Origin: a virus
Length of the DNA stretch: 32,223 nucleotides
Virus record (IMG/VR): IMGVR_UViG_3300042340_000225
Location: 1-32,223 of that record
Direction: 5' to 3' (one strand)
In this document: positions 1-32,223 of the stretch, one piece after another
How the letters are laid out: each line of letters begins with the position of its first letter
How positions within the stretch are numbered: the first letter of the stretch is position 1
Made by a program: the position numbers and the translations under genes
Notes under the pieces: model-generated
The model's database searches: none
Told to the model about the DNA's origin: nothing
Seen by the model: the letters and a program-made list of their open reading frames with translations, nothing else

Positions 1-127
1 CTTGACATCCAAGTATGTGAGCTCAGTGATGTTGTTAGTATACACAACACAATATCCTCCTTTACCTCTTGATTCAATGACAGCCTCTGAATGGTCCTTG
101 AGTCTTGCAATTTTCTGATTGCCCTCA
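1..127. repeat. terminal direct repeat, left copy (circular overlap)
   Basis: These 127 bases are identical to bases 32097-32223 at the other end. The primase-helicase reading frame continues without interruption through the join, so the two copies are one genomic locus seen twice. A length of exactly 127 matches the largest k-mer of common de Bruijn assemblers. That favours an assembly overlap of a circular or circularly permuted genome over true phage terminal repeats. Confidence 0.95.
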
Positions 128-492
128 ACATTCTTTGTTTTGTAGAGAATATGATATCCTTGATTGATTGTCTTGTATATGGTGAACTTTAGATCAAAGT
201 CATCAATGTTGTCCTTGAGTAACTGGAGGAATTCATTCCAGAAATCATTCTGCTCTTTGAGAGTTGCAAATACTTTGAGATCCACATCAATGACCTCAAT
301 CTCATTGTATCCAGTTAGGAAGCCAACATAATTGGCTTTGTCAGAATAGTATCTCTGTTCAAACTCATCTTTGGTAAATGCTTTCTGTTGACATTCTTTC
401 CAGGATCCGATTGGCCTTTTTTGGTCATCAGAGACAATCAGAGAATATCCAATGTCAATCAGTTTCTTGGCATGTGATAATGGGATTAGCAT
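1..492 (-). CDS. PrimPol-type primase-helicase, N-terminal 164 residues (gene continues at 30360-32223)
   Basis: This is the N-terminal part of a 742-residue replication protein whose remainder lies at the other end of the window. The frame runs from an ATG at 492 to base 1 and continues in phase at 32096 of the circle. The first 150 residues look like an archaeo-eukaryotic primase (PrimPol) domain. There is an acidic pair in the context VIDVDLK near residue 70 and a GYH motif near residue 114, which in this family bind metal and nucleotide. Residues near 141-148 read SRGKGGYC, a common ending of this domain. It should make primers at the phage fork. No Shine-Dalgarno is visible before the ATG. 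The start lies just 8 bases after the U-tract of a terminator-like hairpin, which suggests control by attenuation. Confidence 0.88.
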   Translation of the reverse strand, partial: MLIPLSHAKKLIDIGYSLIVSDDQKRPIGSWKECQQKAFTKDEFEQRYYSDKANYVGFLTGYNEIEVIDVDLKVFATLKEQNDFWNEFLQLLKDNIDDFDLKFTIYKTINQGYHILYKTKNVEGNQKIARLKDHSEAVIESRGKGGYCVVYTNNITELTYLDVK

Positions 493-499
493 GGTACAT

Positions 500-585
500 A
501 AAAAAATATTGCCCCACCATATCCCAAAGCTCTCACTCTTTGTTCAATGATAGGGCAAAAAATATCTTTATTAATTTGTGAGAGC
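500..585 (-). promoter_or_regulatory. attenuator-like leader of the primase-helicase gene
   Basis: Read on the minus strand, TTGCCCTATCAT (558-547) pairs with ATGGTGGGGCAA (520-509) over 12 positions, two of them wobbles. A run of U follows (506-500), the form of an intrinsic terminator, and the primase ATG is at 492. Upstream, GCTCTCAC (585-578) is perfectly complementary to GTGAGAGC (536-529), which lies inside the loop of that hairpin. The two pairings are interleaved, so they would form a pseudoknot or compete. This arrangement is seen in the sequence; a role in switching primase expression is inferred. Confidence 0.5.
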
Positions 586-591
586 ATGTTG

Positions 592-599
592 CAAATATA
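592..599 (-). promoter_or_regulatory. Bacteroidota-type -7 promoter box before the primase leader
   Basis: The minus strand reads TATATTTG, an exact match to the TAnnTTTG -7 element of Bacteroidota promoters. Transcription would begin near 585, precisely where the first arm of the attenuator-like leader starts. No convincing TTTG -33 box is present at the usual spacing, so the match could be chance in AT-rich DNA. The iterons start about 50 bases upstream and could act as operators. Confidence 0.35.
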
Positions 600-645
600 A
601 TAATTTTTTGATTCTCGGTACATTTTTAATTTTTTTATTGTTTAC

Positions 646-825
646 TGTGAAATTCACACTAAATTTCACACCTAATTTCACACCTAATTTCACACCACTT
701 TTTCAGTATTGACAAGGCTTTCAGAGGCTTAGTGTGAAAATTTCACACCTGGAGAAAAAAATAGTTTTTTTAAGTCTTTCAATTTTCTCATTCATTAGGT
801 GTGAAATCCGTTTCACAGTTCACAG
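646..825. repeat. 12-bp iterons and inverted copies, candidate replication origin or operator
   Basis: Four head-to-tail 12-mers occupy 650-697: a degenerate first copy (650-661), AATTTCACACCT (662-673), the same again (674-685), and AATTTCACACCA (686-697). The first overlaps a perfect palindrome, TGTGAA-A-TTCACA (646-658). Another copy at 739-750 is paired with an inverted half (AGTGTGAAAATTT from 731). An inverted copy AGGTGTGAAAT is at 797-807, and TTTCACA/TTCACAG elements are at 811-825. Two more (920-930 and 939-951) lie inside the neighbouring DnaA-like gene. The core TTTCACAC shares the CACA end of a DnaA box. The array fills the only large non-coding stretch (493-819), between that gene and the primase. 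Confidence 0.75.
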
Positions 826-1254
826 TTTACTTAAAGTATTGATTTCAATAAACTTCGCAACTATCTCATTTAGAGTCTTTAAATCCTCAAATGATTCAGC
901 CATTTCCTTGTCCAATTCCAGTGTGAAAGTCAGTTCATAGTTCACACCTTTCTTTTTAATGCTCACTGGAATGTACTGCATGTCATTTTCAAACATCAGG
1001 ACCTCATCCATCAATTGCTTGATTGTGTCCATATATCTCTGATCCTTGAGCTTGTACCATTTCCTGTGTTGCTTGATGCCATATATCACTGTTGCATGAT
1101 TCTTTCCAAAGGCCCTTGAAATGGATGAGCATCCCATCCCTGTTCTGCTCAGCAAGTAATAAAGATAGTAACGTTTATAGCACTCTGATTCTTGCCTGTT
1201 GTTATTGGCCAGATCATATTTATCAATCAGATTGAGGAGAAATTTTCTTTTCAT
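820..1254 (-). CDS. DnaA domain IV-like DNA-binding protein
   Basis: This 144-residue protein has a helix-turn-helix near residues 38-66 that resembles DnaA domain IV, the part of the bacterial initiator that reads DnaA boxes. The stretch ISRAFGKNHATVIYGIKQ at 45-62 fits the DnaA signature, where GKNHATV stands for the usual GRDHTTV. The AAA+ ATPase domain of DnaA is absent. The C-terminal 60 residues are acidic and helical and match nothing I know. Iterons start right at its 3' end and the primase gene lies beyond them, so it could be a replication initiator, an origin marker or a repressor of the primase promoter. Two iteron-like sites lie within the gene. Its ATG overlaps the previous stop (ATGA at 1254-1251). 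Fold call fairly sure; role inferred. Confidence 0.75.
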   Translation of the reverse strand: MKRKFLLNLIDKYDLANNNRQESECYKRYYLYYLLSRTGMGCSSISRAFGKNHATVIYGIKQHRKWYKLKDQRYMDTIKQLMDEVLMFENDMQYIPVSIKKKGVNYELTFTLELDKEMAESFEDLKTLNEIVAKFIEINTLSKL

Positions 1255-1496
1255 TGTAGTTCTTTTGGACCTTTGATATCTTTGAATAATGCTGAATCTG
1301 TTGAAATCATTCCTGTTGCTTTCATGAAATCAACCTCAACCTTTGCTGAGTTGATGATCACAGCTCCAATCTGAGCAACTGCCTCAGCTTTCTGTAGCTC
1401 TTTTTGTAGCTCCTCATTTGTTAGTTCATCATTGTCAATTCTTTCCAATGCTGCAAAGAGATGATCTCTTAAATCTGATATTTTATTTCTTGCCAT
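1251..1496 (-). CDS. conserved small phage protein, helical, function unknown
   Basis: The protein has 81 residues and is mostly charged and helical. I recognise the general pattern KISDLRDHLFAALE followed by AVAQIGAVIINSAKVEVDFMK, which recurs in small proteins of many phages and prophages without a known function. No catalytic motif or membrane segment is visible. It overlaps the end of the HNH gene by 14 bases and the start of the DnaA-like gene by 4 (ATGA), so translation is probably coupled along this early operon. The placement suggests a role in early replication or its control, but that is only context. Confidence 0.8.
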   Translation of the reverse strand: MARNKISDLRDHLFAALERIDNDELTNEELQKELQKAEAVAQIGAVIINSAKVEVDFMKATGMISTDSALFKDIKGPKELQ

Positions 1497-30363: not shown

Positions 30364-32223
30364 TTTTTCTCTATTTTAGTTATCCAATTTATTACTGTTC
30401 TTCTGCTCACCTGGAGAATCTCTGATGCTGTTGTTCTGTTCAGCTCAGGATCTGATTGATACATTGCCAGGAATTGCTCATATTTATTTGTTCCATGACT
30501 TGCCAATTTCCTTAGATCTGCCTTCTCTTGAGCATCTTGCTTGACAAGTTTACTCATGTTGATAAAATAATCACTGAGTCTCTCAGCTCTCAACATTGCC
30601 TCCTCACAAATTGACAAAGCATCTGATCCATCCTCTGAGCTTATTAAGATATTCAATATCATTGAGAATCTTGGAATGTAGCTCTTTTGTTTTGGCAGCA
30701 TTGATTTCATGTACTCATTCTCATCATCTGAATTCTGCATCTCAGATATCTTGTCATGAATTCTGATCCATTGCTCATTGGCCTCTGGAGAGAATCTTGT
30801 CACATGTGGAATGATCTCACCTTTCTCATCAGTTCTAAAAAAGTTCTTTGCAATTGATTCCTTGAGTCTGATCATAAAATTCTCATACCATGACATCAAT
30901 TCATAATCAAGAACATTGGTATTGTATTTCTCAACAGATAGCTCTGGATAGCTTATGAGCATTCTGTCAATGAATCCATTCTCTTTGTTTACTCCTGTTG
31001 CAAATTGCTCAAATATATCTGGTTGAATACCTCCAATCACAGGAATGAATGGCTTGTCAACAAATGCACTTTTGGATGTTTTTCTGTTGAGAGATATGCT
31101 CTGACCATTCCATGATGACAGCCAGAATTCAAGATCTGATCCAGCCCTATATTTGTTCATATCCTTAAACCATCCAGCAAGTTCATCCTTGAATACTCCA
31201 ATACAATTTGGATTGGTTTCATGCAAGTCAATCAATGCCTCCAGAGTAATATCACCAACAATGAATTGTTCAGATCTTGGCTTTTTTATCTCCTCAACAT
31301 ATTTCTTGGCATCCTTGTCAAGTCTCTCATATTCCACATACTTTGCATATTCTTTCTGGAATTCTTTTTGTTTTCTGATATTTAATTTTTGCAATGGAAA
31401 GATAATCTGATTCAAGCTCGGTGTCTTTCCTATTCCAGGCTTACCAACAACAGCCAGCCACAATGTTGCTGTCTCTCTCCATCCTGGTTTGATTTCAACA
31501 ATAAATGAGTTGCCAATACACACTGACATGGACCAAAGGAAAGCACAGCCCATGTAATCAATGGAGAGCCCTAATGTCTGAGCACTCTGGATTATGTATT
31601 GCTGTATCTCTTGACTGAATATATCAATAGGAAATTGAACTCTCTGAATATTAGGCTTGTGTTCAATAGGTTGTATTACAATTTTTTTCTCTTTCCTGGC
31701 TCCATATCCTTGAGAATAAATATCTCTTGCCGATGCTGTGAAATCACCGTTATGACATTTATATGTGTATGCCTTGAATGGTGTAATCAATTGCTCATGA
31801 GGATATATTGTGCCTGTTGAGAATAGATACATACATCCAGTATTTCTGTACACATATCCAGAATGAGGAGATGTTCCTCCATTTCTCTTGATGATATCCT
31901 TGTCATGAGTCTTTGATACAATTTTAAACTCATCAGAAATGATATCCCAGATTGATACCCTATCATTGTAATCTTGCCAAGGTGTTAATGTGCTCTCATA
32001 TTGCTCAGATACATTTGTGACAATCTCTTGATCACCTGTCCAGTTGTACATCTTGCAGATGGTCCACAGTATTTCTCTGTCCTTGTCTGAGATATGCTTG
32101 ACATCCAAGTATGTGAGCTCAGTGATGTTGTTAGTATACACAACACAATATCCTCCTTTACCTCTTGATTCAATGACAGCCTCTGAATGGTCCTTGAGTC
32201 TTGCAATTTTCTGATTGCCCTCA
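30360..32223 (-). CDS. PrimPol-type primase-helicase, C-terminal part (starts at 492 across the join)
   Basis: This is the remainder of the 742-residue protein that starts at 492; the last 127 bases here duplicate bases 1-127. The C-terminal half is a DUF3987-like helicase. It has Walker A GKPGIGKT near residues 382-389 of the full protein, then an acidic FKDELAGWFKDMNKY segment near 465-480 and SWNGQSISLNRKT following. The final 45 residues hold a helix-turn-helix (NRTTASEILQVSRRTVINWI). Together with the N-terminal primase domain it should open DNA and prime synthesis; no DNA polymerase gene is seen, so the host enzyme is probably used. The stop TGA overlaps the next ATG. Reading this part alone would suggest a wrong GTG start at 32141. 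Confidence 0.9.
   Translation of the reverse strand, partial: EGNQKIARLKDHSEAVIESRGKGGYCVVYTNNITELTYLDVKHISDKDREILWTICKMYNWTGDQEIVTNVSEQYESTLTPWQDYNDRVSIWDIISDEFKIVSKTHDKDIIKRNGGTSPHSGYVYRNTGCMYLFSTGTIYPHEQLITPFKAYTYKCHNGDFTASARDIYSQGYGARKEKKIVIQPIEHKPNIQRVQFPIDIFSQEIQQYIIQSAQTLGLSIDYMGCAFLWSMSVCIGNSFIVEIKPGWRETATLWLAVVGKPGIGKTPSLNQIIFPLQKLNIRKQKEFQKEYAKYVEYERLDKDAKKYVEEIKKPRSEQFIVGDITLEALIDLHETNPNCIGVFKDELAGWFKDMNKYRAGSDLEFWLSSWNGQSISLNRKTSKSAFVDKPFIPVIGGIQPDIFEQFATGVNKENGFIDRMLISYPELSVEKYNTNVLDYELMSWYENFMIRLKESIAKNFFRTDEKGEIIPHVTRFSPEANEQWIRIHDKISEMQNSDDENEYMKSMLPKQKSYIPRFSMILNILISSEDGSDALSICEEAMLRAERLSDYFINMSKLVKQDAQEKADLRKLASHGTNKYEQFLAMYQSDPELNRTTASEILQVSRRTVINWITKIEKK
32097..32223. repeat. 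terminal direct repeat, right copy (circular overlap)
   Basis: This is the second copy of bases 1-127, identical base for base, and lies within the primase-helicase gene. Removing one copy leaves a circle of 32,096 bp in which the gene is intact. Confidence 0.95.

Follow-up and report, generated by a model that had tools for sequence, protein, structure and literature searches.

The window analysed here is an entire virus record of 32,223 bases, which is circular or terminally redundant; because its two ends (1-127 and 32097-32223) are an identical 127 bases, the primase-helicase gene, encoded on the minus strand, spans the junction (Table 1). Upstream of this gene lie AT-rich sequence, TTTCACACC repeats and the gene of a small protein with similarity to DnaA domain IV. 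Several TTTCACACC copies, direct and inverted and partly 12 bp apart, occupy positions 646-830, between the primase promoter and the DnaA domain IV-like gene (820-1254), and judging from the sequence this region and this gene are likely to be a replication origin with its binding protein. The DnaA-like protein has a close homologue (86%) in G021 and weaker ones in G020 and G022. An 81-aa protein encoded at 1251-1496 (minus strand) matches phrog_2044 with E 1.9e-21, a family that carries the annotation 'RNA polymerase beta subunit'; as a common antiterminator it was rejected, since no more than 3 of the group's 24 phages have it. DNA similarity between the window and named phages was confined to a carboxypeptidase gene.

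The leader between the promoter box and the primase-helicase gene

In the flavobacterium F. psychrophilum, the promoter box lies at -12 to -5 (PMC9723704), a geometry that predicts a primase transcript starting at A587 and puts segment B inside the transcript, at +3 to +10. An earlier note on this DNA had located B at the transcript start itself and had named a start that excluded B as an observation that would refute its reading; by the published geometry the predicted start is refined to A587, and the placement of B within the RNA stands. The four arms that the note had described were all found on the minus strand, among them a 12-pair stem (A:A', here P2) with two G-U wobbles, in whose loop B' is complementary to B. 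This stable stem is followed directly by a U-tract, as in an intrinsic terminator, so that the note's description of it as terminator-like was borne out. The U-run ends 7 nt ahead of the primase ATG (492-490), and an AUG at 499-497 is out of frame with the primase.

The structured leader RNA, which lies between a promoter that looks genuine and the primase gene, is about 80-85 nt long. Of 200 dinucleotide shuffles, 199 fold less well than this segment (z -2.76, B:B' not counted), and P2 is recovered by RNA folding without pseudoknots, together with a small stem surrounding B'. The 8-bp B:B' match is weak evidence when taken alone, since chance would supply 1.2 occurrences of such an 8-mer over the window; the exact copies in the window are two, namely B and B' themselves.

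Table 1. Features of the primase-helicase leader, and leaders at other loci
Feature	Position	Strand	Basis or remark
Primase-helicase	1..492, continuing 32096 -> 30360	-	Prim-Pol (5' part) + DUF3987 helicase, 743 aa
-7 promoter box TATATTTG (TAnnTTTG)	592..599	-	sequence; unchanged across the 12 distinct relatives
B, 5' arm of pseudoknot helix P1, GCUCUCAC	578..585 (+3 to +10, predicted)	-	covaries with 529-536
Linker from B to hairpin	559..577	-	sequence
Linker motif AAAGAUAUU	561..569	-	conserved in window clade
A, 5' strand of terminator-like hairpin P2, UUGCCCUAUCAU	547..558	-	P2 covariation
P3 5' strand, CAAA (relatives: ACAG or AGGA)	539..542	-	read from alignments
B', loop arm of P1, GUGAGAGC	529..536	-	covaries with 578-585
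P3 3' strand, UUUG (relatives: CUGU or UCCU)	525..528	-	read from alignments
A', 3' strand of P2, AUGGUGGGGCAA	509..520	-	P2 covariation
U-tract after P2, UUUUUUU (7 U)	500..506	-	sequence
Leaderless 33-codon frame from predicted +1	486..587	-	stop overlaps primase start
Further leaders	L186 6598-6693, 8831-8932; L161 3111-3204; L172 10209-10309; L107 1071-1174		before phrog_21613, GIY-YIG, DUF3127, ERF genes

Covariation of the interleaved helices

A scan with the primase N-terminus yielded 21 viral contigs from close relatives, and covariation was counted on the 12 distinct rows among them. Three types of B/B' occur in these relatives (GCUCUCAC/GUGAGAGC, GCCACCAC/GUGGUGGC and GAUCUCAC/GUGAGAUC). 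P1, the helix between B and B', carried double changes in 4 of its 8 pairs with 100% of cells paired across the 12 distinct relatives; in P2, 99.3% of cells were paired, with a both-sided change in one pair and one-sided changes in three. Taking P1 and P2 together, 22 cells were double-changed, compared with 8.2 +/- 1.9 in shuffled controls and 0-4 when the registers were slid by 1-3 columns, an excess which indicates that the B:B' pairing is real. Covariation is thus found in both interleaved helices, as in an H-type pseudoknot or kissing loop. Beyond what the earlier note had described, a third covarying helix (P3, 542-539 with 528-525), recognised by eye in the alignments, pairs in each type (CAAA/UUUG, ACAG/CUGU and AGGA/UCCU).

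The earlier note had suggested checking the four arms for covariation and conservation in relatives, and had allowed for either a pseudoknot or two exclusive folds. The arms proved to be conserved and covarying, with B' following B exactly. Since B' lies inside the A:A' loop in every member and is framed there by P3, selection appears to keep pairings that co-exist, which upholds the pseudoknot and speaks against the exclusive folds. On this comparative evidence, the window leader is a pseudoknot in which both pairings are predicted to form together, and whose helices appear to be selected as RNA.

A wider family in Bacteroidota phages

Divergent primase alignments provided 80 viral loci, some overlapping the earlier set, and 7 bacterial MAG contigs. 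Already in L043 and L044, with a primase identity of 51-55%, the same strand order was found at unrelated sequence. Because MAFFT could not align the diverse helices for one covariance model, we used a topology descriptor with shuffled controls, consisting of two interleaved helices with fixed loop ranges and a TAnnTTTG anchor, and it matched upstream of many primases. At a score of at least 39, 22 matches were obtained from the 1517 TAnnTTTG boxes of 23 related contigs and the window, versus 0 in dinucleotide shuffles, and anchoring at random positions in these genomes yielded 3.3 matches; a kissing-loop descriptor (score at least 50) gave 15 matches versus 0 in shuffles. Altogether, about 45 leaders in Bacteroidota phages show this architecture, which reappears where the primary sequence is unrelated; the P1 and P2 pairing of descriptor-found members holds by construction, and the argument is carried by the shuffles and by independent features. 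An entry of 'none' in the primase tree likewise means that nothing was found at threshold, not that a leader is absent.

P0, P3, the ORF start, the U-rich tail, the linker motif and the GU bias played no part in the selection of matches. P0, a hairpin of at least 4 bp with B in its loop, is present in 33 of 38 non-linear members (9.3 in shuffles, at most 16), and begins mostly at +1 or +2, in agreement with the published promoter geometry. The P3 score across the family was 380, compared with 232 +/- 17 in shuffles. In 21 of 22 matches, the start of an ORF with 45 codons or more follows within 40 nt (background 14%). The median distance from P2 to the ATG is 16 nt. In the 8 nt after P2, the T fraction averages 0.70 over 46 non-redundant members versus 0.30 upstream of other ORFs in the same phages, and a U-rich tail is found in 85% of members versus 9% of the background; the tails of some relatives, L003 for example, are poor U-tracts. 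The linker motif A[AG]ANATT occurs in 29 of 46 family linkers (7.4 in shuffles), and GU opens B or B' in 27 of 46 members (6.6 in shuffles), a bias which hints that the members share a contact at one terminus of the kissing helix. The P2 hairpin has a mean of -19.7 kcal/mol, and B:B', which ranges from 6 to 10 bp, averages 7.8 bp and about -10.7 kcal/mol.

In most members, B is thus predicted to sit in the loop of a 5'-terminal hairpin and the two loops to kiss, while the window clade is without P0. In the primase tree this clade, with B at the transcript 5' end, adjoins L142. Since P0 is present in the L142 leader, the linear form is probably the derived one; the leaders of G001 (minus strand) and G007 also appear linear. 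In a subset of members (L085, L162 and L114, for example), inspection revealed an extra covarying linker hairpin just before the terminator-like hairpin, which reads UAGUC-AAUA-GACUA in L085 and UAGAC-AAUA-GUCUA in G003.

The genes that follow the leaders are non-homologous to one another, and encode Prim-Pol helicase, ERF, DUF3127, GIY-YIG, T5orf172 and phrog_21613 proteins as well as small unknowns. B and B' vary freely across the family: some genomes have two leaders with differing B codes, and the codes differ even between the window phage and L028 (promoter 100%, primase 96%) and between G003 and L085 (promoter 100%, primase 98%).

In 400 kb of a MAG of Psychroflexus (Flavobacteriaceae), descriptor matches were about as frequent as in shuffles, and this lack of enrichment spoke against a general host feature. 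The leader was not found in the unrelated phages phi38:1 (first 50 kb), 6H and phi12:1, nor in human-gut sequence (four contigs that encode distant DUF3987 proteins). Rfam searches returned chance matches only for window positions 400-900 at E <= 10, and no gathering-level match for 15 loci. As far as sequence comparison can tell, these phage RNA leaders make up a family that had not been catalogued before.

Attenuation and the readings that compete with it

The double changes in P1, the recurrence of the topology at unrelated sequence and the independent features support a model that we favour with moderate confidence, namely that the leader is a cis-acting kissing-loop or pseudoknot attenuator of the primase-helicase. 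In this model, the 5' end of the transcript (B) would pair with the apical loop (B') of the terminator-like hairpin formed by P2 and P3, giving a pseudoknot in the window phage; in most relatives B lies in P0, and the pairing would be a kiss between two loops. P2 and its U-tract would act as an intrinsic terminator directly ahead of the start codon, and engagement of the loop by the RNA's own 5' end may set the proportion of RNA polymerases that continue into the primase-helicase gene. Our guess, following the proposal for guanidine-IV, is that the formed kiss would favour read-through and its loss termination; a competing RNA, a phage protein or the speed of elongation are candidate signals for making or breaking it. 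With a B:B' as long as 7.8 bp on average, the kiss might instead be constitutive rather than switching. A switch that shortens the linker would need pairing between linker and U-tract, which was not enriched over random tails and was therefore rejected as a conserved switch.

The closest layout that has been validated is that of the guanidine-IV (mepA / GGAM-1) riboswitch, in which two hairpins with loop-loop pairing and a terminator work by termination control (PMC7736828, PMC11611296). In guanidine-IV and its Gd4v variant, the 3' hairpin is a Rho-independent terminator directly before the gene, and the genes are non-homologous (PMC7736828, PMC9788692, PMC11611296); its kiss has been proposed to promote read-through (PMC7736828, PMC11611296). 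Most of the phage relatives are similarly predicted to have two hairpins with pairing loops, the 3' one terminator-like, although the window clade lacks the 5' hairpin. Unlike guanidine-IV, the phage leaders have no Rfam match and no conserved ligand-pocket sequence, their B/B' pairing is long and freely varying with only the linker motif and the GU bias in common, and this analysis encountered them in phages and phage-like loci alone. For these reasons the leader is classed, by its sequence features, as a candidate that would work like guanidine-IV rather than as a member of it.

Among the alternatives, a translational operator is unlikely, though the least improbable of them; the pseudoknot would then control whether ribosomes reach the primase start, and a replication protein would bind it in autogenous repression, as gp32 does with the pseudoknot of T4 gene 32 mRNA. 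A pseudoknot within a replication gene's 5' leader, the leaders ahead of ERF and DUF3127 genes and the short P2-to-ATG spacing all suit translational control. However, such an operator leaves the U-tract, far above background, without a role, and non-homologous genes with differing B/B' misfit one product recognising one sequence; the hairpin also stops short of the start region and leaves the start uncovered. That the leader is instead an mRNA stabiliser, whose 5' hairpin or paired end shields early phage mRNAs from 5'-dependent decay, we consider improbable: P0 or B near +1 in most members and the placement before many unrelated early genes agree with it, but a plain 5' hairpin would suffice for this purpose, and the kept complementarity to a distant loop, P3 and the U-tract would go unexplained.

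Still less probable is a classical attenuator in which ribosomes translating the 33-codon frame through the hairpin couple primase expression to translation. The predicted +1 is the A of this frame's ATG, and all 20 close sequences, among them the window, keep the frame open, with its stop at or across the primase start; in L010, where the primase start codons have changed, the overlap is retained as TAATG. Yet substitutions in the frame are almost all non-synonymous, a second frame is stop-free as well in L002 and L003, and the short frame is absent from other family members, so that a conserved leader peptide was rejected as the main explanation and the frame is at most a local add-on. Chance complementarity, or an inverted repeat acting at the DNA level as an operator or origin element, might be suspected in an AT-rich intergenic region adjoining iterons and a DnaA-domain-IV-like gene; the double compensatory changes in P1, G-U pairs that only minus-strand RNA can form, zero shuffled matches at equal score and the strict placement after a promoter and before ORF starts make it very hard to credit. 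An HDV-like ribozyme has the same strand order, but on inspection the 8-nt segment from B' to A' is too small for P4 or a catalytic C, and this candidate was discarded.

Several other systems share parts of the proposed attenuator. In phage P4, the leader and CI RNA attenuate the alpha primase-helicase operon through a processed, trans-acting RNA and Rho-dependent termination; both cases have RNA-RNA complementarity in the leader and premature termination before a primase-helicase gene (predicted here), whereas the candidate leader, proposed from sequence, would act in cis. The T4 gene 32 mRNA pseudoknot, which likewise precedes a phage replication gene as part of its 5' leader, is bound by the product of its own gene, gp32, and is not known to be followed by a terminator or to recur at many genes, unlike the present leaders with their terminator-like hairpin and many downstream genes. 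In HK022 put RNA, early phage transcripts also begin with two hairpins, which are not reported to kiss or to carry a fused terminator. Antisense control of plasmid replication offers loop-loop pairing of about 7 bp, as in the kissing of ColE1 RNAI/II, and attenuation of a replication gene, as in pIP501/pT181 and as predicted here; there the partner is a separate antisense RNA, while here both loops reside in one transcript.

A more speculative idea, to which we give little weight, is a phage-wide system of RNA control. Every early or replication gene would have a leader with a private, fast-changing code by which the 5' end recognises the leader's own terminator loop, and leaders that have terminated would act in trans, exclusively on leaders identical to themselves; near-identical phages (window/L028 and G003/L085) already bear different codes. 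If true, this would amount to RNA-based replication control or superinfection immunity.

Little is known about how Bacteroidota phages control their genes, and not many RNA regulators have been described in them; our search of open-licence papers found none of this kind. The leader family adds a recurrent, clearly structured RNA at the 5' end of replication transcripts, new to Rfam and with a variable self-recognition pair. It would allow ligand-free control of read-through, by a kiss between a transcript's 5' end and a terminator loop, to be tested, and may serve as a compact part for expression control in flavobacteria.
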